Below are positions 635 through 61,697 of a stretch of 64,000 bases of DNA, piece after piece (positions within the stretch are counted from its first letter, which is position 1; each line of letters opens with the position of its first letter). Made by a program: the position numbers and the translations under genes. The notes below the pieces were generated by a model. The model was given only the letters and a program-made list of their open reading frames with translations, made no database searches and was not told the origin of the DNA. The DNA comes from Actinorugispora endophytica (lineage in GTDB: Bacteria > Actinomycetota > Actinomycetes > Streptosporangiales > Streptosporangiaceae): contig NZ_SNYN01000003.1 of NCBI RefSeq assembly GCF_004363075.1, positions 248,001 through 312,000 on the forward strand, read 5' to 3'.

Positions 635-722
635 CAACGGACCGGTTCCGCCCTCGCTCGTGGCGGTCGCGGACTTTCCGCCCTTTCGGACCCCGGAACA
701 GGCGGAAAGCTCAAGACCACCG
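635..722 (-). repeat. Dispersed intergenic repeat R1 (hairpin with flanks)
   Basis: The hairpin arms are about 671-689 and 694-712 (core CTTTCCGCC / GGCGGAAAG). The left flank GGTTCCGCCCTCGCTCG is the reverse complement of the right flank of copy R9 near 54010. The right edge TCAAGACCACCG is the reverse complement of the box end GGTGGTCTTGA seen in R7. It sits between convergent genes, so it could end transcription from both sides. The stop codon of the minus-strand gene (711-713) lies at the edge of the hairpin. Confidence 0.7.
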
Positions 723-12231: not shown

Positions 12232-12349
12232 GGTCGAGAAGGGAGGCCGGGCGCCGTCGCCGGACCCGGCCTCGGCCGGGTCAGCTGTTCGGCTGCCCGG
12301 GGCCGCCCTGCCGAGGGCCGCTCCGGTATGGGGGTTCCGGCGCGGGGGT

Positions 12350-12562
12350 GGTTCGACGTCGGGAATCCGCCGACCGGATCGTCGGGGTGTCCTCGTGTGC
12401 GGCGCGGTGACGGGGGCGGCGACGGCGAGCGGGGGTCGGGGCCGCGCCCGTGATGTCCGTTGCGTGAGGGTGTCGTTGACGGTCGTGGGCTTTCTGCCCG
12501 TTTCGGGGCCGGGAAGGGCGGAAAGCCCATGATCATTCCGGGTGGGGGCGGAACCGGCCCTC
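12350..12562 (+). repeat. Dispersed intergenic repeat R2
   Basis: Full-length copy. The outer flank CGCCGACCGGATCGTCG (from ~12369) is shared with R7, and box GGTCGGGGCCGCGCCC (~12434) with R7, R9 and R10. The hairpin TGGGCTTTCTGCCCG... has arms 12486-12506 and 12507-12529. The right flank ATGATCATTCCGGG leads to GGGGGCGGAACCGG, shared with R6 in inverse orientation. It lies just beyond the 3' end of tetR and abuts the inverted copy R3. Confidence 0.8.
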
Positions 12563-12776
12563 GAATGTCCGGTGATCTTGCTGTTTCCCCCGAGGTCAAG
12601 GTTCTCGGGGGGAAACAGCAAGATCACCAACGGAAACCACGCGAAACGGACGTCGTGGGCGCGGCCCCGACCCGCACCCGCCGTCGCCGCCCGCCGTCAC
12701 CTCGCGATCCGCGCGGCGTGAGGCCGAAAGACCCCCGAAACACCGATGCCCGAATCACCCCCGCGCCGGAGGTTCC
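12563..12776 (-). repeat. Dispersed intergenic repeat R3 (inverted, class II hairpin)
   Basis: A near-perfect 24-bp stem, 12571-12594 with 12604-12628 (TGATCTTGCTGTTTCCCCC and its complement), is followed by the box in reverse (GTCGTGGGCGCGGCCCCGA). An outer flank reading inversely as GGTGATTCG...GGGTCTTTCGGCCTC is shared with R10. R2 and R3 form a tail-to-tail pair between the convergent tetR and MBL-like genes. Confidence 0.8.
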
Positions 12777-12945
12777 CTAGCCGCCCTGGGCGTTGCCGCG
12801 CTTTCGGCTGGCCTGGTACTGGCTGGAGTAGGCGGCCTTGGCGGCGCGGCTCGTGTCGTCGTGGCGGGCGGGGGCGGCCAGGTCGTCGAGCTCGCCGAGC
12901 TGGGAGCCGGTCTCCTCGGCCAGTTGCGGCGGGGCACCGACAGGC
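12777..12945 (-). pseudogene. Start-less coding remnant or small protein
   Basis: Reading minus from ~12942 to TAG 12777-12779 gives GAPPQLAEETGSQLGELDD, then LAAPARHDDTSRAAKAAYSS and QYQASRKRGNAQGG. Nearly every codon ends in G or C and the composition (Glu, Asp, Gln, Lys) is that of a real hydrophilic protein. No ATG or GTG occurs in frame before the frame enters the 3' end of the MBL-like gene. It could be the 3' remnant of a broken gene, a frameshifted tail, or a protein with a non-standard start. Confidence 0.4.
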
Positions 12946-21501: not shown

Positions 21502-22524
21502 ATGTCCGTCTATGAGCACATCACCGAGTTCGCGGGCCTTCCCGTCGTGGACTTCCTCTCCGATGACATCGAGGAGGAGCGGTACCAGAAGGCCCGGCGC
21601 CACGCCGGGGCCGACGGCGCGCGGGTCGAGCCGGACGACGGGGCCTACGCGGCGGCGCTGGCCGACCCGGGGTCGGTGGCGTGGCGGCTGCGGGTGTCCT
21701 CGTACGATCCGCAGGAGCCGTTCGAGGAGTACTTCGCGCGCTTCCTGGCCGAGGTCGACACCGCCCGGGTGGGCGCGCTCGTCATCGGCTGCTGGGGGGA
21801 GTCCTACGAGGTCGACGCCTCGGTCCCGCGCGACCTCCTGGTAGGGAACGCGGGCCGGTTCCCGGCGCTGCGCGCCCTCTTCCTCGGCGAGTACCTCGCG
21901 GAGGAGGCCGAGATCTCCTGGATCCAGCAGACGGACGTCACCCCGCTGCTGGCCGCGTTCCCCGCGCTGCGCGAGCTCACCGTGCGCGGCGGGGAGAGGC
22001 TGGAGTTCCCCGCGACCGGGCACGAGGCGCTGGCGTCGCTGACCGTGCAGACCGGCGGGCTGCCCGGGGAGGCGGTCGCCGGGATCCTGGCGTCGGACCT
22101 GCCCGCGCTGGAGCGCCTGGAGCTGTGGTTCGGGGTGGAGGACTACGGCGGCACCACCACCGTGGAGACGCTGGAGCCGCTGCTGTCGGGGAAGGTCTTC
22201 CCGAGCCTGCGCCACCTGGGCCCGCGCAACTCCCCGTGGGGGGACGACCTGGTGCGCGCCCTGGCCGGGGCGCCCGTGCTGCGCCGGATCCGGGTCCTGG
22301 ACCTGTCCGGGCACGTCCTGAGGGACGAGGGCGGCCGGGTGCTCGCCTCCGCGCCCGCCTTCCGCGGCCTGGAACGCCTGGTGCTGCGCTACCACTTCCT
22401 GAGCGAGCCGGTCATGGCCGAACTGCGCGCCGCCCTGGCGGGGGTCGACCTCGACCTGAGCGGCCCCGAGGAGCCGGACGCCTACAAGGACGAGGTGTAC
22501 TACTACCCCGAGGTCACCGAGTGA
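21502..22524 (+). CDS. STM4015-family leucine-rich-repeat-like protein, copy 1
   Basis: 340 aa from ATG 21502 (GGAG 8 bp upstream); this start aligns with the other two copies at ...EHITEFAGLPV. The protein has an N-terminal ~150-residue part (VAWRLRVSSYDP, FARFLAEVDTARVGALVIGCW) followed by leucine-rich-repeat-like strands (LPALERLELWFGVEDY, RRIRVLDLSGHVLRDEGGRVLASAPAFRGLERLVL). I recognise the STM4015 family, named from Salmonella, of unknown function and part of the STM4011-STM4015 cluster. No signal peptide is seen. It is the first of three tandem paralogues; copy 2 starts 100 bp downstream. Confidence 0.8.
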   Translation: MSVYEHITEFAGLPVVDFLSDDIEEERYQKARRHAGADGARVEPDDGAYAAALADPGSVAWRLRVSSYDPQEPFEEYFARFLAEVDTARVGALVIGCWGESYEVDASVPRDLLVGNAGRFPALRALFLGEYLAEEAEISWIQQTDVTPLLAAFPALRELTVRGGERLEFPATGHEALASLTVQTGGLPGEAVAGILASDLPALERLELWFGVEDYGGTTTVETLEPLLSGKVFPSLRHLGPRNSPWGDDLVRALAGAPVLRRIRVLDLSGHVLRDEGGRVLASAPAFRGLERLVLRYHFLSEPVMAELRAALAGVDLDLSGPEEPDAYKDEVYYYPEVTE

Positions 22525-22624
22525 GTCCGCGCCGCCGGTGACGGAGGCGGCTCGCCGGGGCGCGGTGTCGCCCCGGCCTGGTATCACTGTCGTGTCCCGA
22601 CCGCCCCTCCCCCCGGAGTCACGC

Positions 22625-23653
22625 GTGATCAACGAGCACATCACCGAGTTCGCGGACCTTCCCGTGGTGGACTTCCCCTCCGCGGACCTCGAAGCGGAGC
22701 GGCTGCGGGACCTCCGGTACCGCGCCCGGCGCGAAGGGATGCCGGAGCCCGAGGAGCCCGGACCGGACGAGGCGCTGGACGCCGCGCTGGCCGATCCCGG
22801 ATCGGCGGCGTGGCGGCTGCGGGTGTCCTCGTACGATCCGCGGGAGCCGTTCGAGGAGTACCTCGCGCGCTTCCTCGCCGAGGTCGACACCGCCGAGGTG
22901 GGCGCGCTCGTCATCGGCTGCTGGGGCGACACCGCCGAGAAGACGCTGGGCGGCCGCGTCCGGGACGCGCTGCTGGCGCGCGCCGACCGGTTCCCGGCGC
23001 TGCGCTCGCTGTTCTTCGGCGAGTTCCTCTCGGAGGAGGCCGAGATCTCCTGGATCCGGCAGACGGACGTCACCCCGCTGCTGGAGGGGTTCCCCTCACT
23101 GGAGGAGTTCACGGTGCGGGGCGGGACGGGACTGGGGTTCCACCCGGTCCGGCACGGCGGGCTGCGCGGGCTGGTCGTGCAGACCGGGGGGCTGCCGAAA
23201 GAGGTCACCGCCGGGATCCTGGCCTCGGACCTGCCCGCGCTGGAGTACCTGGAGCTGTGGCTGGGGGTCGGGCACTACGGCGGCGACACCTCCACCGGGA
23301 CGCTGGCGCCGCTGCTGTCGGGGGCGGCGCTCCCGGAGCTGTGCCACCTGGGGCTGCGCGACGCCGAGCGGACCGACGACCTGGTGCGGGCGCTGGCAGA
23401 CGCGCCGGTCCTGGAGGGGCTGCGCTCCCTGGACCTGTCGATGGGCACCCTCACCGACACCGGGGCGCGGGCCGTCGCCGACAGCCCGGCCTTCCGGGGC
23501 CTGAGCCGCCTGGACCTGAGCCACCACTTCCTGTCCCGGGACAGGGCGGCCACGCTGCCGTCGGCCCTGCCCGGGGTCGAGGTCGTCCTCGACGACTGGC
23601 GGGGGGAGAGCACCCCCGACAAGCCGTCCCACTACCCCTCGGTCACCGAGTGA
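22625..23653 (+). CDS. STM4015-family leucine-rich-repeat-like protein, copy 2
   Basis: 342 aa from GTG 22625 (VINEHITEFADLPVVDF). It shares long blocks with copy 1: EEAEISWI, QTDVTPLL, LTVRGG/FTVRGG, ILASDLPALE, DDLVRALA. Compared with copy 1 it has a charged insert (EGMPEPEEPGPDEALD) and an altered tail (DDWRGESTPDKPSHYPSVTE). The LRR segment SLDLSMGTLTDTGARAVADSPAFRGLSRLDLSHHFL is more regular than in copy 1. Upstream CCCCGGAG serves as the ribosome site. It presumably arose by tandem duplication. Confidence 0.8.
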   Translation: MINEHITEFADLPVVDFPSADLEAERLRDLRYRARREGMPEPEEPGPDEALDAALADPGSAAWRLRVSSYDPREPFEEYLARFLAEVDTAEVGALVIGCWGDTAEKTLGGRVRDALLARADRFPALRSLFFGEFLSEEAEISWIRQTDVTPLLEGFPSLEEFTVRGGTGLGFHPVRHGGLRGLVVQTGGLPKEVTAGILASDLPALEYLELWLGVGHYGGDTSTGTLAPLLSGAALPELCHLGLRDAERTDDLVRALADAPVLEGLRSLDLSMGTLTDTGARAVADSPAFRGLSRLDLSHHFLSRDRAATLPSALPGVEVVLDDWRGESTPDKPSHYPSVTE

Positions 23654-23738
23654 CCCCGGACGACGGTCCCCGGCGGCCGTTCCGGGCCGCGCCGGCGCCG
23701 GGACCACCGACAGAAACCCCCCTTCCCCGGAGTGGCGT

Positions 23739-24773
23739 GTGACCATCAACGAGTACATCACCGAGTTCGCGGGCCTTCCCGTGATGGAGTTCCTCTCCCC
23801 GGACCTGGAGGCGGAGCGGCTGCGCGTCCTGCGGTACCGGGCCCAGCGCGAGGGGCGGCCGCTTCCCGAGCGGCTGGAGCCGGACGCGGCCTACGCGGCG
23901 GCACTCGCCGACCCGGGGTCGGTCGCGTGGCGGCTGCGCACGGTGGGCCCGAATGGGAAGAAGCCGTTCGAGGGGTGCTTCGCGCGCTTCCTGGCCGAGG
24001 TCGACACCACCAGGGTCACCGCGCTCGTCGTCGGGAGCTGGAGCGAGTACTACGAGAAGCCGGACGCGGTGCCGCGCGACCTGCTGGTGGAGAGCGCGGG
24101 CCGGTTCCCGGCGCTGCGGTCGCTGTTCTTCGGGGAGTTCGTCCTGGAGGAGTCGGAGATCTCCTGGATCGAGCAGTGCGACGTCGCGCCCCTGGTGGCG
24201 GCGTTCCCCGCTCTGGAGGAGTTCACCGTGCGCGGCGGGATGGGGCTGGAGTTCTCCGCGGTCCGGCACGAGGCGCTCACCTCGCTGACCGCGCAGACCG
24301 GCGGGCTGCCCGAGGAGGCCGTCGCCGGGATCCTGGCGTCGGACCTGCCCGCGCTGGAGAACCTGGAGCTGTGGCTCGGGGTGGAGGACCACGGCCGCAC
24401 CACCACCGTGGACACGCTGGCCCCGCTGCTGTCGGGGACGGCGCTTCCGGCGCTGCGCTCGCTGGGGCTGCGCAACGCCGAGCGGACCGACGACCTCGTC
24501 CGGGCCCTTGCCGACGCGCCGGTTCTGGGAAGGCTGGAGGTCCTGGACCTGTCGATGGGCACGCTCACCGACGACGGGGCCCGGATCATCGCCGACAGCC
24601 CGGGGTTCCGCGGCCTGGGCCGCCTGGACCTGCGCCACCACTACCTGGCCGAGGAGGGGATGGCGGAGAGGGTGCGCGCGGCGCTGCCCGGAGTCGAGGT
24701 CGACCTGGGGGAGCCCCAGGATCCCGGGACGGACGACGTCCGGGACGTCTACTACCCGGCGGTCACCGAATGA
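23739..24773 (+). CDS. STM4015-family leucine-rich-repeat-like protein, copy 3
   Basis: 344 aa from GTG 23739 (VTINEYITEFAGLPVMEF), with CCCCGGAG upstream. It shares the same blocks as copies 1 and 2 (EISWI, ILASDLPALENLELW, ERTDDLVRALADAPVL, LDLSMGTLTDDGARIIADSPGFRGLGRLDL). Its stop overlaps the STM4014 start (ATGA, 24770-24773), so translational coupling links this copy to the ATP-grasp gene. It is therefore probably the ancestral cluster member, with copies 1 and 2 the duplicates (inference). Confidence 0.8.
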   Translation: MTINEYITEFAGLPVMEFLSPDLEAERLRVLRYRAQREGRPLPERLEPDAAYAAALADPGSVAWRLRTVGPNGKKPFEGCFARFLAEVDTTRVTALVVGSWSEYYEKPDAVPRDLLVESAGRFPALRSLFFGEFVLEESEISWIEQCDVAPLVAAFPALEEFTVRGGMGLEFSAVRHEALTSLTAQTGGLPEEAVAGILASDLPALENLELWLGVEDHGRTTTVDTLAPLLSGTALPALRSLGLRNAERTDDLVRALADAPVLGRLEVLDLSMGTLTDDGARIIADSPGFRGLGRLDLRHHYLAEEGMAERVRAALPGVEVDLGEPQDPGTDDVRDVYYPAVTE

Positions 24774-30824: not shown

Positions 30825-32261
30825 TCAGATGTTGCCGGGGCCCGCGCCGTTGGAGACGATGCCGGGGACGCTGCCCGCGCTGTCGAGCGAGTAGCTGTAG
30901 GGGATGGGGTCGACGGTGCCGCCGCCGCTCTCGGGGGTGCCCGAGCCGGTGAAGGCGTTGCCGCGCTGGACGATGGCGCCGTCGTCGGAGGAGGCGTAGC
31001 CCACGAGGGTGGGGTCCTCGACGTTCTCGAAGTAGTTGCCCTCGACCAGGACGCCGCCGCCCATGGTGGAGGCGACTCCGTACTCGTTGTCGCGGTAGTA
31101 GTTGTTGTAGACGTGCACGGGGTTGCCGAAGCGCACGCGGGGGTGGCGGGTGTCGCTGCCGTCGAAGAAGTTGTGGTGGTAGGTCACCCGCAGGTGGCCC
31201 TCGTCTTCGTCGTGGCTGTCGGAGTGGCCCAGCAGCATGGACTTGCCGTGGTCGAAGAAGTGGTTCCACGAGACGGTGACGAAGTCGGACTCGCGCTTGA
31301 CGTCCACGGCGCCGTCGTAGCCGTCGGTGAAGCTGTTGTGGTCGACCCAGACGTTGGTGCTGCTCTCCTGGATGTTGATCGCGTCGTCGTCCCATCCGCT
31401 GAAGGCGATGTTGCGGATGACGACGTTGTGGGAGCCGTTCAGGTTGAGGCCGCCGCCGGTGATCGCCGCGTTGGAGCCCACGCCGATGATGGTCTTGTTC
31501 GAACCCACCCGGTTCATCCCCGACAGGTTGATGGTCCCGCTGACCCGGACGACCGCGGCGTTGTCTCCCTGAATGGCCGAGGTGAGCGCGGAGGCGCTGG
31601 TGACCGTGGTGGTGGAGCCGCCCTGGCCGCCGGTGGTGCCGCCGTTCTGGGTGGCCCAGCCGGTCAGGCCGTCCGAGGAGCCGCCCCCGTCGTCGGTGAC
31701 CTTGGTCAGGCGCCAGCGCTGGTTGGCGCCGTCGGCGTCGGTGTACTGGGAGAGGCGGGCGCCGTCGGCGGTGGACCACTCCCACACCTCCAGGGCCTTG
31801 CCGCTGTTGCGGTTGAGGAGCCGGACGTCGCCGTCGGCGGAGTCCACGACCCGGAACTGCTGGTTGGGGTTGCCCAGCGGGTCGTACTGGCGGATCTCGG
31901 CGCCGTCGGCGGTGGAGTGCTCCCACACGTCCACGGCCTTGCCGCTGTGCCGGTTGACCAGCGAGTAGTAGCCGTCGCCGGAGGGCACGAACCGGAACTG
32001 CTGGTTGTGGCCGCCGAGGTCGGCGAACTGGCGGATCTCCCCGCCGTTCTCGGTGGACCACTCCCACACGTCCATCGCCTTGCCGCTGTGCCGGTTCACC
32101 AGCACGTAGTAGGCGTTGGTGTCGATCGTCGCCGCGGCGGCGGGCTGCGCCACCGCGGCGACGGTGGCCAGGGCCATGGCCAGCGCCGCGGTGATCGCCG
32201 CCAGCAGGCGCCATCGTTCGGGGACCCGTCTGACCGGGGATGCTGCCGCTCGGAGTCGCAT
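30825..32261 (-). CDS. Secreted pectate lyase (PL1) with ricin-type lectin CBM13
   Basis: 478 aa from ATG 32261 with GGAGG upstream. Residues 1-43 are a signal peptide ending AAAA. Residues ~48-185 hold three ricin B/CBM13 repeats (NRHSGKAMDVWEWS, NRHSGKAVDVWEHS, NRNSGKALEVWEWS, each closing with NQQF/NQRW). Residues ~205-470 are the PL1 parallel beta-helix: NVWVDHNSFTDGYDGAVDV (Ca2+ site), VSWNHFFDHGKSMLLG and HHNFFDGSDTRHPRVRFG (with the RxPRxR arginines). It cleaves pectin/polygalacturonate outside the cell. The promoter carries a LacI-type palindrome, suggesting sugar control. Confidence 0.95.
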   Translation of the reverse strand: MRLRAAASPVRRVPERWRLLAAITAALAMALATVAAVAQPAAAATIDTNAYYVLVNRHSGKAMDVWEWSTENGGEIRQFADLGGHNQQFRFVPSGDGYYSLVNRHSGKAVDVWEHSTADGAEIRQYDPLGNPNQQFRVVDSADGDVRLLNRNSGKALEVWEWSTADGARLSQYTDADGANQRWRLTKVTDDGGGSSDGLTGWATQNGGTTGGQGGSTTTVTSASALTSAIQGDNAAVVRVSGTINLSGMNRVGSNKTIIGVGSNAAITGGGLNLNGSHNVVIRNIAFSGWDDDAINIQESSTNVWVDHNSFTDGYDGAVDVKRESDFVTVSWNHFFDHGKSMLLGHSDSHDEDEGHLRVTYHHNFFDGSDTRHPRVRFGNPVHVYNNYYRDNEYGVASTMGGGVLVEGNYFENVEDPTLVGYASSDDGAIVQRGNAFTGSGTPESGGGTVDPIPYSYSLDSAGSVPGIVSNGAGPGNI

Positions 32262-35173: not shown

Positions 35174-35202
35174 GCGTTCCCGCTTCACGGTGTTCTTCTC
35201 GC

Positions 35203-35352
35203 TGATCTTGACCTTTTCGGGGTCTCAGAGACGGTTGAGGCCCCGGAAAGGTCTAGATCACCGGACAGGAACCACGCGGAACGGTCATCGTGGGCGCGGC
35301 CCCGACCCGTACCCGCCGCCCGCCGTGACCCCGCGATCCGCGTGGCGCGGCG
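35203..35352 (-). repeat. Dispersed intergenic repeat R5 (class II hairpin)
   Basis: The arms TGATCTTGACCTTTTCGGGG... (35203-35227) and ...CCCCGGAAAGGTCTAGATCA (35236-35260) pair with three mismatches. The box follows inversely: CACGCGGAACGGTCATCG, GGGCGCGGCCCCGACCC, then GCCCGCCGTGACC as in R3. It lies between the convergent cspA and carboxypeptidase genes. Confidence 0.8.
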
Positions 35353-38689: not shown

Positions 38690-38800
38690 CGCGCCGACCG
38701 GTCCCGCCCCCGCTCGGAATGATCACGGGCTTTCCGCCCTTCCAGGCCCCGAAACGGGCAGAAAGCCCAAGACCGCCGACGAAACCCTCGCACGACGGAC
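38690..38800 (-). repeat. Dispersed intergenic repeat R6
   Basis: The hairpin GGGCTTTCCGCCCTTCC...GGGCAGAAAGCCC spans ~38727-38768. In reverse complement it matches R2 almost base for base across the hairpin and GTGATCATTCCG. The flanks CCTCGCACGACGGACATCA and CCGGTCCCGCCCCCGCT correspond inversely to the R2 box end and right flank. It is the only copy ahead of a gene start (dxr) rather than past a gene end. Confidence 0.75.
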
Positions 38801-42997: not shown

Positions 42998-43262
42998 GGT
43001 CGCGTCAACGGCGGGTGCGGGCCGAGGCCGCGCCCACGATGTCCGTTTCACGAGAGACTCGTCGGTGGTCTTGACGTTGTCGTTCTGAAAACCGCGGTTT
43101 TTGGAACGACAACGTCAAGATCACCGGACAGGGCCCCTGTGGAGACCGTGAACCGGATCCTCCCGCACGGACCGGGTCCTCGGCTCGTCGCCGCCTCGTT
43201 GCCGCGCCGGGCACGGGAACACCTCGACGATCCGGTCGGCGAATTCCCGACGCCGGAACACC
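42998..43262 (+). repeat. Dispersed intergenic repeat R7 (longest copy)
   Basis: Box GCGGGTGCGGGCCGAGG...CGCGCCCACGATGTCCG (43012-43063) leads into a 52-bp palindrome (43069-43094 with 43095-43120; two mismatches, no loop; arms TCTTGACGTTGTCGTTC...). An inverted second half follows, including CACCTCGACGATCCGGTCGG, which reads inversely like the outer flank of R2. The element is thus symmetric, about 265 bp, and lies after ispG. Confidence 0.8.
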
Positions 43263-53384: not shown

Positions 53385-53875
53385 GCGGTTCCCCGATCTC
53401 CCGGATGTCCGTGTGGCCGCTGCCCGGGCTCGTCACGCCCCCTCCACGTGGCGAGCCCGGGAACGCCTGGCGGTCGGCGCCGCGGGTGCTTCCCCTCAAA
53501 AGGCACCCGCGGCTGCACATGTCCCAGCCGTGTCGTGGCCGGTCGGGGGCCGGTCGCCGCACCGCCTCCGAGAGAACGGGGGCGGCGCGCCACAGGACCG
53601 TCCGGACCACGACGCTTCTGGGATTCCGCGCCCAGGGCGCATGTGGTCGTTCCTCGCCGGGCTCCGCTGGGCGGACCGCCGGGAAACAACCTCACAGCTC
53701 TGAGATTACCGCCATCGCGGCCATTTGCACATGCATTCTCGTGTGCAGCTGCATATGTAAATTTGGCCCGTGGCCGTATGTAGAAAGTATCTTCGCAGTT
53801 CAGAGCGGTGGTGTGCATCCCTGTCAGAGACGGTTTCCCTGAGACGCGCCCCTCGCTGCGCGAGGCCACGGCGGG
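53385..53875. other. Intergenic region with an AT-rich palindromic island
   Basis: No gene is recognised. The first ~300 bp are GC-rich. From about 53690 to 53830 the DNA is notably AT-richer: TTTGCACATGCA (53724-53735) and TGCATATGTAAA (53750-53761) form a dyad with a 14-bp centre containing TGTGCAGC. It may be the promoter/operator of the adenylate-forming-like gene. Confidence 0.4.
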
Positions 53876-54035
53876 CAGCGACGGCGGGTGCGGGTCGAAG
53901 CCGCGTCCACAACGTCCGTTTCCTGGCCGTGTCGGGGGCGGAGTCGGCGACGATCCTGGGCTCTCCGCCCGGTCCGGGGCCGGAAAGGGGCGAAAAGCCC
54001 GTGATCATCGCGAGCGAGGGCAGAACCCGTCCCCG
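53876..54035 (+). repeat. Dispersed intergenic repeat R9
   Basis: Box GCGGGTGCGGGTCGAAGCC (~53884) and CCACAACGTCCGTTTCC are followed by the hairpin GGGCTCTCCGCCC...GGGCGAAAAGCCC (~53958-54000). The right flank GTGATCATCGCGAGCGAGGG matches R1 inversely. It lies just past the 3' end of the STAND-LuxR gene. Confidence 0.78.
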
Positions 54036-54053
54036 AACCGCCGCGCAGCAGAA

Positions 54054-56459
54054 CTAATGGTCGCGGATCCAGGCGGCGATCTGGGTACGGGAGTTGAAGC
54101 CCAGCTTGGTGTGGATGTTGGCGACGTGCCGCGCCACCGTGGCCGGGCTGATGAAGAGGCTCTCGGCGATCGACCGGTTGCTCATGCCCTCCCCGATCAG
54201 CAGGGCGATCTCGTGCTCGCGCCTGGTCAGTGCCGAGGGGGCGGTGTCGGGGGCCTGCGGGCGGCGCCGGGGAGCGCGGCCCGTCTCGGCCAGGCGCAGG
54301 GCGGACTTCACCGCCTCGTCGACGTCCAGGGACCGGCCCTCCTCCCACCGGGCCGCGAACGCGCCGTCCCGCAGCGGCCACGGGGCCGAGGCGGGCGGAT
54401 GGCCCGAGCGCTCCCGCACCCCCGCCGCGGCCCCCGCCAGCACGGTCGCCTCGGCGTCGAGGCCCTGCGTCCGGGCGACGGTGGCGATGGCGAGAAGCCC
54501 CCGGGCCACACCCAGGCGCTGCCCGGTTCCGTGGCACAGGGCCAGACTCTCGCTGAGGTAGTCGTAGGCCTGCGCCACGGCCCCCTGGAGGGCGGAGATC
54601 CGGCCGACCCCGGCCAGGCAGCGCGCCAGCTCGGGCGCGCCGCCGATGGAGCGCTGGATGTCGAGCGCCTCGCGGAAGCACTGGTCCGCGCCGAACAGGT
54701 CCCCCCGGGCCTCGGCCACCATGCCCTGGCCGATCAGCGTGCGGCCGACCCCCCAGCGGTGGTCGATGCGGCGCAGGATCGTCAGCGCCTCCTCGTAGTG
54801 GGCTCCCGCCTCGTCCAGGCGCCCTTCGAGAGCGGCCAGCGCCCCCTGGGTGCCGAGGGCGAGCCCCTCGTTCCACGGGTCGCCCACCGCGCGGGTCAGC
54901 GCGACGGCCTCGGCCAGCCGCTCGCGCGCGCGGTCCAGCTCCCTGTCGCGCATGTCGGTCATGGCCAGGATGTTCAGGGCCAGCGCGACGGAGTCGTCGT
55001 CACCGGCGGCCCGGCAGTACCGCAGCCCCTCCTCGCCGACGTGCGCGGCGCGGGCGTGGTCCCGCTGGTCCCAGGCCAGTTCGGCCCTGCGTACCATCGC
55101 CTGCCCGCGCAGCCCCTCGTCGGCGCACCCCATGGCGAGGAAGCGGTCGGTCCAGTACGCCCCCTCGGCGCGCTGGCCGCTGACCATCCAGAACGGGCGC
55201 AGCGCGACGCACAGCCGCAGGCCCTCGGCGGCGTCCTCGCGGGTGGCCGACCAGCTGAGCGCGGAGCGCAGGTTGTCGTAGTCGACCAGGACCCGGTACC
55301 ACACGTCGACCCGCTGCGGCCAGGCCATCCCGTGGCCGAACACGGTGTTGCGGGACAGCTCCTCGGCCAGCGCCAGCATCTGCTCGCGGTGCCGCAGCCG
55401 CAGCGCCTCCTCCTCCCCGGAGTCGTCCAGCCTGGCCGCCGCGTACTGCCGGATGGTGTCCAGCAGCCGGTAGCGCATCCGGCCCTGCTCCTCGCCGGCG
55501 ACGGTGACCAGCGAGCGGTCCACCAGGGAGACGACCAGGTCGAGCAGCGACTCCGCGGGCAGCGACGCGTCCGCGCAGACCCGCTCGGCCAGGTCCAGGT
55601 TCCAGTTGGAGAACACCGACAGCCGCCGCAGCAGCACCCGCTCGCGCTCGTCCAGCATGCCGTGGCTCCAGTCGATGACCGCGCGCAGCGTCTGCTGGCG
55701 GGCCGGGGCGCCGCGTTCACCGCTGGTCAGCACCGTGAACCGGTCGCCGAGGCGGGCGGCGATCTGGGTGACCGACAGCAGCCGGACCCGGGCCGCGGCC
55801 AGTTCGATGCCCAGCGGGATGCCGTCGAGGCGGCGGCAGATCTCGGCGATGACCTCCAGGCGCTCGGGCGTGGCGGTGAAGTCGTGGGCGCTGGCGCGGG
55901 CGCGGTCGACGAAGAGCCGGACCGCCTCGGCGCCGCACGGGTCGTCCTGGTCCGGCCGGGGCACCGCCAGCGGGGGGACCCGCCACACCGCCTCGCCCGG
56001 GGCGCGGGCGGGTTCGCGGCTGGTGACGAGGAAGGACACGTCGGGGCAGAGGGCGACGAGGCGCTCGACGACGGCCGCGACGTCGGCGACCACGTGCTCG
56101 CAGTTGTCCAGCACGAGCAGCAGGCCGCGCGAGCGCAGCACGTCGGCGAGGGTGTGCTCCAGGTCCCGCCCGTCCTCCTCGCCGACCCCGACGGCGGTGG
56201 CCATCCGGGTGATGATCTCCTTCCGGCTGGTGGTGTCGGAGAGTTCGCACAGCCACACCCCGTCGCGGAAGTGGGACGTGGCGTGTCCCGCGACCCGCAG
56301 GGCCAGCCGGGTCTTGCCGATCCCGCCCACCCCGCACAGCGTGACGACCCGGTGGGCTTCGATCAGCCGGAGGATGTCGCTGACGTCTCGTTCGCGGCCG
56401 ACGAAGCTGTTGGGTTCCAACGGCAGGTTCTGCAGGGCCGGTGCGGTGTTCGTGGCCAT
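54054..56459 (-). CDS. STAND ATPase-LuxR transcriptional regulator, copy 1
   Basis: 801 aa from ATG 56459. An NB-ARC-type P-loop GVGGIGKT (43-50) follows FVGRERDV. Walker B-like GLLLVLDNCEHVV and SFLVTSREPAR, the GIPLGIELAAARVRLLS motif and LDTIRQYAAARL are typical of AfsR/LAL-type ATPases. A TPR-like helical region (~400-690) contains paired-helix repeats. The C-terminal LuxR HTH (~740-800) is SALTRREHEIALLIGEGMSNRSIAESLFISPATVARHVANIHTKLGF. It is a nucleotide-switch regulator activated by an unknown ligand. A close homologue lies directly upstream. Confidence 0.92.
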   Translation of the reverse strand: MATNTAPALQNLPLEPNSFVGRERDVSDILRLIEAHRVVTLCGVGGIGKTRLALRVAGHATSHFRDGVWLCELSDTTSRKEIITRMATAVGVGEEDGRDLEHTLADVLRSRGLLLVLDNCEHVVADVAAVVERLVALCPDVSFLVTSREPARAPGEAVWRVPPLAVPRPDQDDPCGAEAVRLFVDRARASAHDFTATPERLEVIAEICRRLDGIPLGIELAAARVRLLSVTQIAARLGDRFTVLTSGERGAPARQQTLRAVIDWSHGMLDERERVLLRRLSVFSNWNLDLAERVCADASLPAESLLDLVVSLVDRSLVTVAGEEQGRMRYRLLDTIRQYAAARLDDSGEEEALRLRHREQMLALAEELSRNTVFGHGMAWPQRVDVWYRVLVDYDNLRSALSWSATREDAAEGLRLCVALRPFWMVSGQRAEGAYWTDRFLAMGCADEGLRGQAMVRRAELAWDQRDHARAAHVGEEGLRYCRAAGDDDSVALALNILAMTDMRDRELDRARERLAEAVALTRAVGDPWNEGLALGTQGALAALEGRLDEAGAHYEEALTILRRIDHRWGVGRTLIGQGMVAEARGDLFGADQCFREALDIQRSIGGAPELARCLAGVGRISALQGAVAQAYDYLSESLALCHGTGQRLGVARGLLAIATVARTQGLDAEATVLAGAAAGVRERSGHPPASAPWPLRDGAFAARWEEGRSLDVDEAVKSALRLAETGRAPRRRPQAPDTAPSALTRREHEIALLIGEGMSNRSIAESLFISPATVARHVANIHTKLGFNSRTQIAAWIRDH

Positions 56460-56837
56460 GGCCTCCGCGCGATCAGGCGGTCGGGGGAGCGCGGCATCCT
56501 GCCCGGGGGAGCGCGCGTTACGGAAGGCGGACTGAGCAGAGGGAAAAACAGGGAGAACCGAGTTCTCTCTTATCTGTCTTAGTGGCTGTGCCGTCCTTGC
56601 GCAACTGGAACGGATGTTTCCGCTGGTAAAAGTGGAGGTGGTGGGGATGGGGCAATTCGAGGTGAAAAGTGAATTCATTTCGCATTGGCGTCCGGTGGAG
56701 CCCCGTTCGGCTTCGGACGTGTGCCGGGAGGATTCCCCGATTACCAGCTGTTCACCGGAACAGGGCCCCTTCCGACCGTTGTCGATCCTGCGGTCGGCCC
56801 CCGCCGAAACGGACGTTATACGGTGCGGAGTGCAGAA
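56460..56837. other. Intergenic region between the STAND-LuxR genes
   Basis: 378 bp, AT-rich around 56540-56690, and the likely promoter region of copy 1. The copy 1 frame stays open to ATG 56678, but the base composition there is non-coding. No gene is recognised. Confidence 0.4.
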
Positions 56838-59291
56838 TCAACCGGAGAATCCGTTCCCGCCGCTGCTGATTCGGGCGGCGAGCTCGCCCCGCGCGGAGAT
56901 CCCGAGTTTGGCGAAGATGTTGGCCACGTGCCGGGCCACCGTCGCCTGGCTGATGACCAGCCGGACGGCGATCTCCCGGTTGGACAGCCCCACCGCGGCC
57001 AGCTCGGCGACCTGGTGCTCGCGCCGGGTCAGCGACCGCACGCCGTCGTTGACCGGCGCGGGCAGCGCGGCCGCCAGCGCCTCCTCCAGGGGCATGGACC
57101 GGGCCCTGCGCCACGCGGCCGAGGCGGCCGCCCCCAGCCGCGCCTCGGCGAACTCGTGCAGCATCCCGCCGGTCCGGGACGGAACGCCCAGCTCCTGCCG
57201 CAGGGCCTCGGCCTGGGCGCCGAGCAGCACCATCCGGTCGGTCAGGCCCTCGGCGGCGGCGAAACGGGCCAGGTTCTCCATGGACCGGGCCATGGCCAGG
57301 CGCTGCCCCGAGGCCACGCTCCGGCGCACCCCCTCGCTCAGGTACTCCCACGCCTCCGCCGATTCGCCGCGGGCCTCCGCGAGCCGGCCGAGCCCGGCCA
57401 GGCAGTAGGCGGTGTCGAAGTGCGCGCGCAACCGGGTGAACAGCGAGAGAGCGGTGTTCAGGTGCTCCTGCGCGGACTCGAACGCGTTCCGGTGCGTCGC
57501 CAGGAGGCCCAGCCCCGTGTGGCACCGGGCCGCGTGCCAGGCGTCGCCCATCTCCTCGGCGATCTTCAGCGCCGCCGCGAACTCCCGTTCGGCGCCCTCG
57601 CGGTCCCCGGCCGCGTCGGCCAGCGAGGCCAGCGTCCCCAGCGCGTACAGCTCCAGCATGCGGTTGCCGGTGCGCCGCGTGATCTCCAGGCACTCGGCGG
57701 CCTGCCCGCGCCCCTCGTCGATCCGGGACAGCCGCAGCGAGACCACCGCCAGCGATCCCAGCGCCTCGGCGCGCACCGCCTCGTCCCCGATCCTGGTCGA
57801 CAGGCGCAACCCCTCCTCGATCGCGTCCTTGGCCGCCTCGGCCCCCTTCAGGCCGAGCGTGAGCTCGCCGTGCAGCACGAGGGAGCGCGCCCGCAGCGCG
57901 GAGGGGAGGCCGTCGGGCGCGGCCGCGAGCAGGGAAGCGACGAACGCCGCGCCCTCGGCGTGCCGGTCGCGCACCGCCCAGTACGACCGCAGCCCCACGC
58001 AGATGCGCAGCCCCTCGACCGTCATGCCGTGCTCGACGGCCCAGGCCAGGAAGGAGCGGATGTTCCCCCGGTTGACCTCCACCCGGTTCAGGACCTGCAA
58101 GCGCGTCTCCCACGGGAGCGGTTCGGCCATGAACGCGGCGAGGGACTCCACCAGGTCCATCCCGTACTCCAGGGTCCGGCGGCAGTAGGCCTCCGCCTCG
58201 CCGCTGGCCTCGAGCCGTTCGGCGGCGTAGACGCGGATGGTGTCGAGCATCCGGTAGTGGGCGACGCCCTCGACCTCGGCCTCCAGCACGATCAGCGACT
58301 TGTCCAGCAGCGAGCCGTGCAGCTCCAGCAGCTCGTCGCCGTCGCCGAACTCCCCCGAGAACAGCTCCTCGGCGACGTCCAGCGACCAGTTCACGAAGAG
58401 GGAGAGCCGCCGCAGCAGCGTCTTCTCGGGCTCGGAGAGCAGGGCATGGCTCCACTCCACCACCGCGCGCATGGTGCGCTGGCGCTCGGGGAGCCCTTTG
58501 TCGGCGCTGTTGAGCAGGGTGAACCGGTCGTCCAGGCGCTCCAGGACCTGCTCGATCGAGAGCACCCGCACGCGCGCGGCGGCGAGTTCGACGGCCAGCG
58601 GGACGCCGTCCAGGATCTGGCAGATCCGCACGATCGGGGCGATGTTCTCGGCCGTCACGGAGAAACCGGGCCGGGCCCGCCGGGCCCGGTCGGCGAACAG
58701 GCGGACCGCCTCGTAGCGCATCGCCTCGCGCACCGTCGTGCGCAGCGCGGCGGGATCGGACAGCCAGGCGGCGTCCAGGACGGGGGGCTGCGACTCGGTG
58801 GTGGGCAGCGACAGCGGGGGGACCCGCCAGATGTTCTCACCCGGGATGCGCAGCGGTTCGCGGCTGGTGACGAGCAGGCGCAGCCGGGGGCAGGTGCTCA
58901 GAAGGAGCCTGCACAACCGGGCCATCGGGGCCACGACGCGCTCGCAGGTGTCCAGCACGAGCAGCACCTCGCGCGAGCGCAGGACCAGGGGCACCGCCTC
59001 GTCCAGCGAGTTCGCCTGGTTCTCCGCGACGCCCAGGCGGTTCGCCACCAGGTGCAGCGCGTGCGCGCCGGTGGTGGCCGTGCTCAGGTCGACGAAGACC
59101 GCCCCGTCGGCGAACCGGTCGCGCTCGAGCTCGGCGAGCCGGACGGCCATGCTGGTCTTGCCGATACCGCCGGCGCCGGTGAGGGTGACCATCCGCGCGG
59201 TGTCGATCAGGTGGCCGAGGTCGGTGATGTCGCGGTCGCGGCCGATGAAGGGCGAGTGCGGGGCGGGCAGGTCCTGTCGCAGGGGTGACAT
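56838..59291 (-). CDS. STAND ATPase-LuxR transcriptional regulator, copy 2
   Basis: 817 aa from ATG 59291. Same architecture as copy 1: FIGRDRDI, P-loop GAGGIGKT (39-46), VLLVLDTCERVV, LLVTSREPLRIPGENIWRVPPLSLP, GVPLAVELAAARVRVLS, HYRMLDTIRVYAAERL, TPR-like helices, then the LuxR HTH SLTRREHQVAELAAVGLSNREIAVRLVISQATVARHVANIFAKLGI (~752-812). A longer loop (PPVLDAAWLSDPAALRTTVREAMR) is specific to this copy. It and copy 1 are tandem paralogues; no obvious structural target genes are adjacent except hisS. Confidence 0.92.
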   Translation of the reverse strand: MSPLRQDLPAPHSPFIGRDRDITDLGHLIDTARMVTLTGAGGIGKTSMAVRLAELERDRFADGAVFVDLSTATTGAHALHLVANRLGVAENQANSLDEAVPLVLRSREVLLVLDTCERVVAPMARLCRLLLSTCPRLRLLVTSREPLRIPGENIWRVPPLSLPTTESQPPVLDAAWLSDPAALRTTVREAMRYEAVRLFADRARRARPGFSVTAENIAPIVRICQILDGVPLAVELAAARVRVLSIEQVLERLDDRFTLLNSADKGLPERQRTMRAVVEWSHALLSEPEKTLLRRLSLFVNWSLDVAEELFSGEFGDGDELLELHGSLLDKSLIVLEAEVEGVAHYRMLDTIRVYAAERLEASGEAEAYCRRTLEYGMDLVESLAAFMAEPLPWETRLQVLNRVEVNRGNIRSFLAWAVEHGMTVEGLRICVGLRSYWAVRDRHAEGAAFVASLLAAAPDGLPSALRARSLVLHGELTLGLKGAEAAKDAIEEGLRLSTRIGDEAVRAEALGSLAVVSLRLSRIDEGRGQAAECLEITRRTGNRMLELYALGTLASLADAAGDREGAEREFAAALKIAEEMGDAWHAARCHTGLGLLATHRNAFESAQEHLNTALSLFTRLRAHFDTAYCLAGLGRLAEARGESAEAWEYLSEGVRRSVASGQRLAMARSMENLARFAAAEGLTDRMVLLGAQAEALRQELGVPSRTGGMLHEFAEARLGAAASAAWRRARSMPLEEALAAALPAPVNDGVRSLTRREHQVAELAAVGLSNREIAVRLVISQATVARHVANIFAKLGISARGELAARISSGGNGFSG

Positions 59292-61438: not shown

Positions 61439-61465
61439 AAACTATCCGCCGGCCGAGGTCTTTGG

Positions 61466-61697
61466 AGTTTCCGGCGCGGGGTGATTCGCGTGCTGGTGCC
61501 TCGGGTGGGTCTTTCGGCCTCGCGCCACGCTGGTCGCGAGGTGACGGCGGGTGCGGGTCGGGGCCGCGCCCGTGACGTCCGTTTCGCGAGAGGCTCGTCG
61601 ACGGTCTTGAGCGTTCTGCCCGTTTCGGGGCCTGGAAGGGCGGAAAGCCCAGGATCATCGAGGGTGGCGGCTGTGCGAACCCGACGGTCGAACCCCG
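61466..61697 (+). repeat. Dispersed intergenic repeat R10
   Basis: Outer part GGCGCGGGGTGATTCG (61474 on) and GGGTCTTTCGGCCTCGC match R3 in inverse orientation. Box GACGGCGGGTGCGGGTCGGG (61542) leads to CGTGACGTCCGTTTCGCG. The hairpin GTTCTGCCCGTTTC...GGGCGGAAAG spans ~61610-61650. The right flank GGATCATCGAGGGTGGCGG matches R8. It separates the 6C RNA from the convergent DUF1116 gene. Confidence 0.82.

Follow-up and report, generated by a model that had tools for sequence, protein, structure and literature searches.

The insertion sequence IS630 was reportedly found by Tenzen and Ohtsubo in 1991 to prefer CTAG as its target. For ISY100, another member of the IS630 family, insertion into TA with duplication of the TA has been shown, in the excerpt of the study drawn on here (PMC2170065). 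The RUP element of Streptococcus pneumoniae, associated with IS630-Spn1, is described in parts of two accounts as non-coding, with inverted ends like those of the resident IS630 element, a TA target, about a hundred or more copies, and a mostly intergenic placement (PMC2229807, PMC3049150). The Correia or NEMIS elements of Neisseria are, in an excerpt of one of these sources, interspersed MITEs with TA at their ends, long stems, and size variants (PMC2229807). REP and BIME sequences, associated with the REP-associated tyrosine transposase (RAYT), appear in portions of the literature as dispersed extragenic palindromes that form genome-specific families and carry compensatory changes (PMC2817692, PMC3733652). 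In Streptomyces clavuligerus, 3' ends that lack a U-tract (HS-U-lack ends) have stable, GC-rich stem-loops, and the relevant section of the report suggests that these may be I-shaped terminators or else 3' ends that depend on Rho (PMC8269248).

The repeats considered here come from a stretch of 64,000 nucleotides of the genome of Actinorugispora endophytica (the window). They, or the hairpins they carry, have several of these features in common with the systems named, and differ from them in others. The IS630 preference for CTAG is matched in that the target is TA within NTAG, but here the landing is in the stop codons of a 72% GC genome, and GTAG is as common as CTAG. RUP, as the excerpts present it, is a simple 107-bp AT-rich element, whereas the present MITE is a GC-rich mosaic of 67-453 bp that carries separate hairpins and stands at one offset in TAG stop codons. 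Correia elements have other ends and live in another host phylum, and stop-codon targeting is not described for them in the part of the source consulted (PMC2229807). Set against what those portions say of REPs, the present hairpins lack a GTAG or CGTC head, are longer, and occur in five high-copy genomes that have no Y1 transposase. The HS-U-lack ends are not described as repeats in the section at hand (PMC8269248), whereas here related stems recur more than 100 times in one genome.

The explanation preferred here has two layers, and we place its probability at about 0.74. The repeats would be non-coding MITEs of the IS630/Tc1-mariner type, and these would carry, among shuffled arm modules, hairpins belonging to a wider class of 3'-end hairpins with a putative part in termination. 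Members of that class are found more often apart from complete MITEs than within them, downstream of genes, in some genera of the family.

The element in the window and its family in the genome

The source genome comprises 5.25 Mb in 44 contigs, with a GC content of 72% over the first 400 kb read. Two samples of it were used. The larger, of 2.304 Mb, consists of the window and stretches of contigs 1, 2, 3, 4, 5, 7, and 8, picked regardless of copy content; the smaller, of 1.524 Mb, served for counts of module clusters, TA share, and stop context. Gene calls come from a purpose-written script that learned from this genome and was applied to other genera too, so that starts and small genes are uncertain, stops less so. 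Within the 64 kb of the window no tRNA was found, and an Rfam scan of it at the gathering score gave 0 matches.

A first-pass annotation had listed eight copies of a structured repeat in the window, and had added 52404 and 14372 as partial or possible copies. Homologous modules are present at all eight places, while 52404 and 14372 were undetected by any module model at an E value of 1e-3. The nhmmer coordinates of the modules are 639-719, 12352-12747, 35201-35318, 38697-38777, 43002-43053 with 43199-43256, 53871-54036, and 61486-61674, the second cluster taking in both of the copies listed at 12350 and 12563. These two had been read as a tail-to-tail pair. They are instead the two arms of one element, at 12329-12777, which has inverted terminal repeats and a TA on each side. 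Its ends differ from the terminal repeat consensus, GGGANNCTCCGGCGCGGGGGTG, by 3 and 0 mismatches, and the whole element is predicted to fold as one long structure (-335.7 kcal/mol, z -16). All other window copies are partial, without a full pair of ends. The features are as follows, with strand in brackets (a dot where none is assigned).

639-719 (-): fragment, HP1 module, from module models
12327-12328 (.): left flanking TA, putative copy of the target duplication
12329-12777 (.): complete MITE, 449 bp, sole window copy with both ends, between convergent genes
12329-12350 (+): left terminal inverted repeat, with T at its start where the consensus has G
12352-12470 (+): arm B and box, GTCGGGGCCGCGCCC...TGTCCGTT, from nhmmer modules, inner limits approximate
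12487-12528 (.): hairpin HP1, GGGCTTTCTGCCC...GGAAAGCCC, predicted fold -41.9 kcal/mol for 12480-12535
12574-12625 (.): hairpin HP2, GATCTTG/CAAGATC, 52 nt, inside the MITE, regex match, predicted fold -48.2 kcal/mol for 12565-12635
12640-12747 (-): box and arm A on the opposite strand, from nhmmer modules, inner limits approximate
12756-12777 (-): right terminal inverted repeat
12778-12779 (.): right flanking TA, putative copy of the target duplication
35204-35259 (.): HP3 hairpin of the GATCTTG type, 3' arm CTAGATC, adjoining a box fragment (cluster 35201-35318)
38697-38777 (-): fragment, HP1 module, upstream of dxr, from module models
43002-43053 (+): fragment, box, downstream of ispG (gcpE), from module models
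43067-43122 (.): 56-nt hairpin, GGTCTTGACGTTGTCG...CAAGATC, with a different inner stem, by regex
43199-43256 (-): fragment, arm B with degenerate end, from module models
53871-54036 (+): fragment, box and HP1, from module models
61463-61674 (+): fragment, degenerate left end, arm A, box, and HP1, without right end and without TA flank

The copies had also been said to lie almost all beyond 3' ends, often between convergent genes. The former holds for six of the seven window loci, each past the 3' end of at least one called gene, but not for 38697, which stands upstream of dxr between divergent genes. The latter is true of only two loci in the window (12329 and 35201). Among the paired elements of the larger sample whose two neighbours are both known, 18 of 37 have convergent neighbours; for intergenic gaps of at least 40 nt the figure is 282 of 1,399.

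Genome-wide, the TA-anchored pattern TAGGGANNNTCCGGCGNGGGGGTG finds 228 ends at up to 2 mismatches; the same pattern read backwards finds 0. At up to 3 mismatches the 2.304-Mb sample holds 140 ends (5 in the reversed control), two of which lie inside called genes. The other 138 are non-genic, and 92 of them have TA directly before the end, while 46 do not; TA makes up 0.9% of dinucleotides in the 1.524-Mb sample. Thirty-eight pairs of ends in the larger sample enclose elements that range from 67 to 453 bp and cluster near 257, 350-390, and 440 bp. TA stands on both sides of 17 of the 38, on one side of 15, and on neither side of 6, and we read a missing TA, at single ends and in paired elements alike, as decay. 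Among the 17 TA/TA elements, the target context is GTAG in 7, CTAG in 6, and something else in 4.

The elements have no coding capacity, and are built of arm and hairpin modules. Their interiors are mosaic: the order and orientation of the parts, namely interchangeable arms A, B, and C, a box, and the hairpins HP1, HP2, or HP3, change from copy to copy. No module cluster lies mainly within a called gene (0 of 133 overlap one by more than half, 1.524 Mb). Some copies abut one another. A BLAST search of the same genome with a 427-bp query from the window gave at least 149 matches, with 40 of 490 candidates scored; the best other copy among those scored is 97% identical over 417 nt.

The proposal of a genome-wide family, to be sought in relatives too, fits the first half of this picture, the family being abundant beyond the window in its own genome. 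The relatives give a different result: full-length matches are absent from all 40 searched, leaving this genome as the only one of 41 to have them, with no genus-mate among either these 40 or the 297 family genomes searched for hairpins below. Weak BLAST matches of 28-87 nt in 10 of the 40 relatives were not counted as MITE copies. The exact terminal pattern was also sought in the genomes of 84,980 species, from which records of this genome itself were possibly excluded, and occurred in three stretches that were judged chance. These come from two Nonomuraea and [Actinomadura] parvosata, and represent one conserved site just upstream of a gene, without a paired end.

Stop-codon junctions and the IS630-family relative

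In the larger sample, 65 genes face an element and have their last base no more than 60 nt from its edge. Fifteen stop before the boundary, 3 stop further in, and 47 stop at exactly +1, where the flanking TA and the first G of the element together make a TAG stop codon. The 47 are distinct genes, with a median length of 294 codons, and they account for about 11% of the TAG stops in the 2.304-Mb sample (47/433).

One might suppose, of course, that insertion into coding sequence created these stops, that the genes are truncated, and that the placement at 3' ends is an artefact, since TA followed by G yields a stop wherever the TA is in frame. Random insertion would, however, leave two thirds of the frames out of frame and running into the element, and 3 of 65 do so. 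Further, the codon that preceded insertion can be read, as TA plus the base after the far TA, in the nine TA/TA elements that have a stop junction. It was a stop in all nine, TAG in 8 and TAA in 1. Thus, the insertion targets were existing stops, and the probability that the elements made them is close to negligible. Elements with a single TA keep it on the stop side in 11 of 11 cases, which is near-definitional and is not counted as evidence.

Elements stand at stops in 18 of 32 cases, whereas of the non-coding TA sites in TAG context about 12% are at stops (1.524 Mb). A preference for TAG alone is therefore too weak to give the excess, which calls in addition for selection or for a more exact rule of target choice. 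The purging of harmful insertions likely adds to it.

A possible source of transposase is present. Three matches to DDE_3 were found in the genome, one above the cut-off, at the end of contig 6. It belongs to an IS630-family element whose second frame scores 100.4 bits with NF033545, against a cut-off of 100. The copy (positions 917-2069 of the extracted locus L029 of this genome, G000) has two overlapping frames with a run of A at their junction, and the contig stops inside its right end. Programmed frameshifting occurs in the IS630 family. Further copies may be hidden in assembly gaps. The left end of this longer copy, whose right end the contig break cuts off, and the right end of an IS630 fragment on contig 16 each agree with the MITE consensus at 15 of 20 positions; they are similar, not identical. 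Of 7,162 TA-anchored 22-mers in 400 kb, 18 reach 15 matches, and 16 of these 18 score at least 17, as MITE ends do. One MITE on contig 16 has a MITE-type end and an IS-type end; it lies directly against the IS630 fragment, with one TA common to both. Loci encoding this transposase or a related one were read at 20 places, and at 10 of them inverted ends stand next to TA, agreeing at 16 or more of 24 positions and mostly about 1.17 kb apart.

The element had been described as not a transposon in any obvious way. That description is contradicted by the terminal inverted repeats, the flanking TA, the IS630-family relative with similar ends, and the precise placement at TAG stops, and because of these the element is classed as an IS630-type MITE. 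It is of the IS630-MITE kind, and a new form of it. In the proposed mechanism, the transposase of an IS630-family element, supplied in trans, would excise the MITE at ends common to both and insert it at TA, with a preference for a TA inside NTAG. As the element usually starts with G, insertion into TAG would leave TA plus G, again TAG; the gene would keep its stop, with little harm. Stop-preserving insertion, together with the loss of harmful insertions, would then bring the elements to 3' ends. We infer such mobilisation in trans, and the near-neutrality of the insertions. A transposon that restores, with its own first base, the stop codon into which it inserts can spread through a gene-dense genome by simple means and at little cost.

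The contrary view, suggested by the first-pass annotation, makes the whole element a non-mobile functional 3'-end or boundary element that selection keeps at gene ends. A genome-wide family with a 3'-end bias does exist, and its absence from called genes, its convergent placement, and its very stable fold suit such a function. Boundary function does not, however, call for an element whose first nucleotide is the last of a stop codon, and the single +1 offset at TAG stops is just that. Nor does it lead one to expect near-identical copies of 400 bp (the 97% identity over 417 nt) bounded by inverted repeats and TA, copies that abut one another, or full-length copies in this genome alone among the 41 searched. 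The placement of full elements is thus explained mainly by target site, and target choice accounts for the apparent "3'-end element." We consider a boundary element very unlikely. The idea of a 3'-end element fits better the hairpin inside some of the copies, which is commoner outside complete MITEs, behind genes, both here and in related genera.

GATCTTG hairpins inside and outside the elements

The hairpin class consists of palindromes, mostly of 54-56 bp, with GATCTTG/CAAGATC arms. The 1.524-Mb sample has 61 module clusters made of HP3 only, 33 of them between convergent genes. Their alignment (61 sequences) gives a 30-bp stem in which 95.1% of cells are paired and 16 of 30 pairs are changed on both sides. 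Cells with double changes number 132; shuffling gives 47.6, with 0 of 500 shuffles reaching the observed count, and slid controls do not exceed 31, although the aligned copies were found by a palindromic model and centred by complementarity, which favours pairing, and kinship of the copies inflates shuffle tests. Summed from the alignment, the inner 27 pairs show 115 Watson-Crick exchanges and 31 one-sided (wobble) changes.

A looser definition, with GATC/GGTC arms, at least 17 of 20 complementary bases, and regex bounds of 50-60 nt, takes in the HP1 and HP2 types also. By it the 2.304-Mb sample has 158 hairpins, 107 of 56 nt and 32 of 54 nt, with 0 within a called gene. Twenty-five are in paired MITEs, and the 133 outside them divide into 43 near a MITE module or end, in broken MITEs, and 90 that are free. 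The claim of a near-fixed length rests on exact-pattern counts rather than on this regex-bounded set: GATCTTG-N25-55-CAAGATC has 161 matches in the genome, 160 of them at 51-58 nt. The lone hairpins have a strong stem and lie a median of 24 nt from a stop codon, and 40 of the 90 are in convergent gaps, against 282 of 1,399 gaps that are convergent (odds ratio 3.2, P 5e-7).

On neither side of the hairpins is there a T-run. They are, therefore, not canonical intrinsic terminators. Their flanks are purine-rich 3' and pyrimidine-rich 5' on both strands, and continue the stem, being 79, 85, 88, 70, and 59% paired at distances 1-5. Of 149 convergent gaps, 40 hold a GATC hairpin; of 150 divergent gaps, 5 do. 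Other strong stems (score at least 12) are found in 50 of the 149 convergent gaps (2 in shuffles) and 7 of the 150 divergent ones, which puts the hairpins, like them common in convergent and rare in divergent gaps, in a niche occupied by other 3'-end stems too. Fifty-four of the 149 convergent gaps lack all three, family hairpin, MITE module, and strong stem.

In other genomes, the HP3 covariance model matches 11 of 60 including this one, several weakly. Of seven loci read in other genomes, four keep GATCTTGAC at the foot of the stem but differ in the inner stem, two carry GATCGTG or GATCTCGG there, and one does not resemble the rest. The pattern GATCTTG-N25-55-CAAGATC reaches at least 8 matches in 35 of 297 family genomes, from 16 genera, with up to 99 matches outside the source genome and 0-1 in reversed controls; these 35 are counted by pattern alone, with hairpin form checked where loci or letters were read, and the low counts include chance matches in coding sequence. 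In nine other genomes 454 of 470 pattern matches measure 53-56 nt. Inner stems differ between most of the genomes read, and some are common within a genus (G290 and G276). A tighter pattern gave 0-5 matches per genome in 395 other genomes of the phylum; of 20 phylum-wide loci checked, 19 had arms of 7-8 bp, which is the pattern itself, and one had arms of 13 bp. Forty distinct hairpins from other genera include 0 within called genes, and 23 of the 32 with both neighbours known are convergent. Where the orthologous 3' end could be compared in the source genome, it has a hairpin in 3 of 11 cases, from 2 loci, compared with 188 of 1,884 genes there. At P 0.09 this is not significant, and hairpin positions thus appear to turn over. 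The class is not described in those parts of the literature on REPs, stem-loop families, and actinobacterial repeats that were consulted.

Two further loci deserve mention for their letters. Genome G021 holds two copies of a hairpin (L127, L140) with base GATCTCGG in place of GATCTTG and inner stem AGATATTGGGGTC, so that the base motif varies too. In G171, from another family, a palindrome at L133, GATCTTGAACTTTCCGGGG...CCCCGGAAAGTTCAAGATC, resembles the inner stem of the A. endophytica hairpins.

Judging by where they stand, the hairpins most likely terminate or protect transcripts that arrive from either side. Present in the RNA of each of two convergent genes, they would work in both directions as 3'-end structures, either I-shaped terminators or ends that block exonucleases; terminator activity is putative. 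The excess of Watson-Crick exchanges (115 against 31) fits a stem that is needed on both strands, although template-switch correction leaves the same trace. It could thus be held that the covariation is due to template switches that correct palindromes as the DNA is replicated, rather than to any selected function. The same excess is expected, however, of selection acting on both strands between convergent genes, and placement at 3' ends with rarity in divergent gaps (5/150) would still need another cause. We regard template switching as an unlikely account, if one to be taken seriously. Much the same standing belongs to the proposal that the hairpins are themselves minimal MITEs of further insertion sequences with ends near GATCTTG, the genome-specific inner stems reflecting different parents. 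Near-constant length, palindromic form, and genome-specific inner stems all speak for this, as does the fact that such hairpins can ride in MITEs here (25/158 in paired ones). But a wide scan of their surroundings found no flanking direct repeat or target duplication (best z 4.2), and the flanks extend the stem by complementarity rather than giving target duplications. The search for a parent element covered the IS630 and Y1 families.

Much less probable is a REP-like origin with spread by a RAYT, for all that short dispersed extragenic palindromes in genome-specific families, with compensatory changes, are what portions of the REP literature describe (PMC2817692, PMC3733652). Y1_Tnp (PF01797), sought in 14 genomes, is absent from the source genome and from G290, G088, G010, and G162, though present in G308, G087, G046, and G104, and the hairpins are mostly 54-56 bp, not 20-40, and without a GTAG or CGTC head. 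Hardly credible is the suggestion that GATCTTG is a DNA-uptake or other dispersed signal whose inverted pairs form terminators. Terminators made from pairs of uptake signals are mentioned in the excerpt of one report (PMC2267715), yet in the coding sequence of this genome the heptamer occurs 217 times where 194.5 would be expected, a slight excess, and the copies within a genome share the whole stem, beyond the heptamer.

The preferred reading of the hairpins, as 3'-end structures that act from both sides, leaves room for a tentative account of their spread, to which we give rather less than an even chance. Within part of a single actinobacterial family, a GATCTTG palindrome of near-fixed length, its inner stem re-made in each lineage, would spread as a bidirectional 3'-end terminator; in the present genome an IS630 MITE would have captured it, and, as it enters TAG stops and restores them, would now distribute cassettes of "stop plus terminator." With a constant outer motif, a lineage-specific inner stem, and 0 hairpins within called genes in the samples, the origin and spread of terminator-like hairpins in GC-rich bacteria become testable.

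Other repeats in the window

The window holds three further sets of repeats. At 21508-24374, three gene-length tandem repeats lie about 1.12 kb apart, with 80-81% identity over 300 nt, as a local gene triplication. Three direct repeats of 120 nt, spaced at 141 nt and 73% identical, occupy 31718-32119 within a called gene. At 55959-59250, two adjacent called genes of 874 and 817 codons have DNA stretches in common at a spacing of 2,844 nt; the first encodes a LuxR/AAA/TPR regulator by Pfam, and the second looks like its duplicate.
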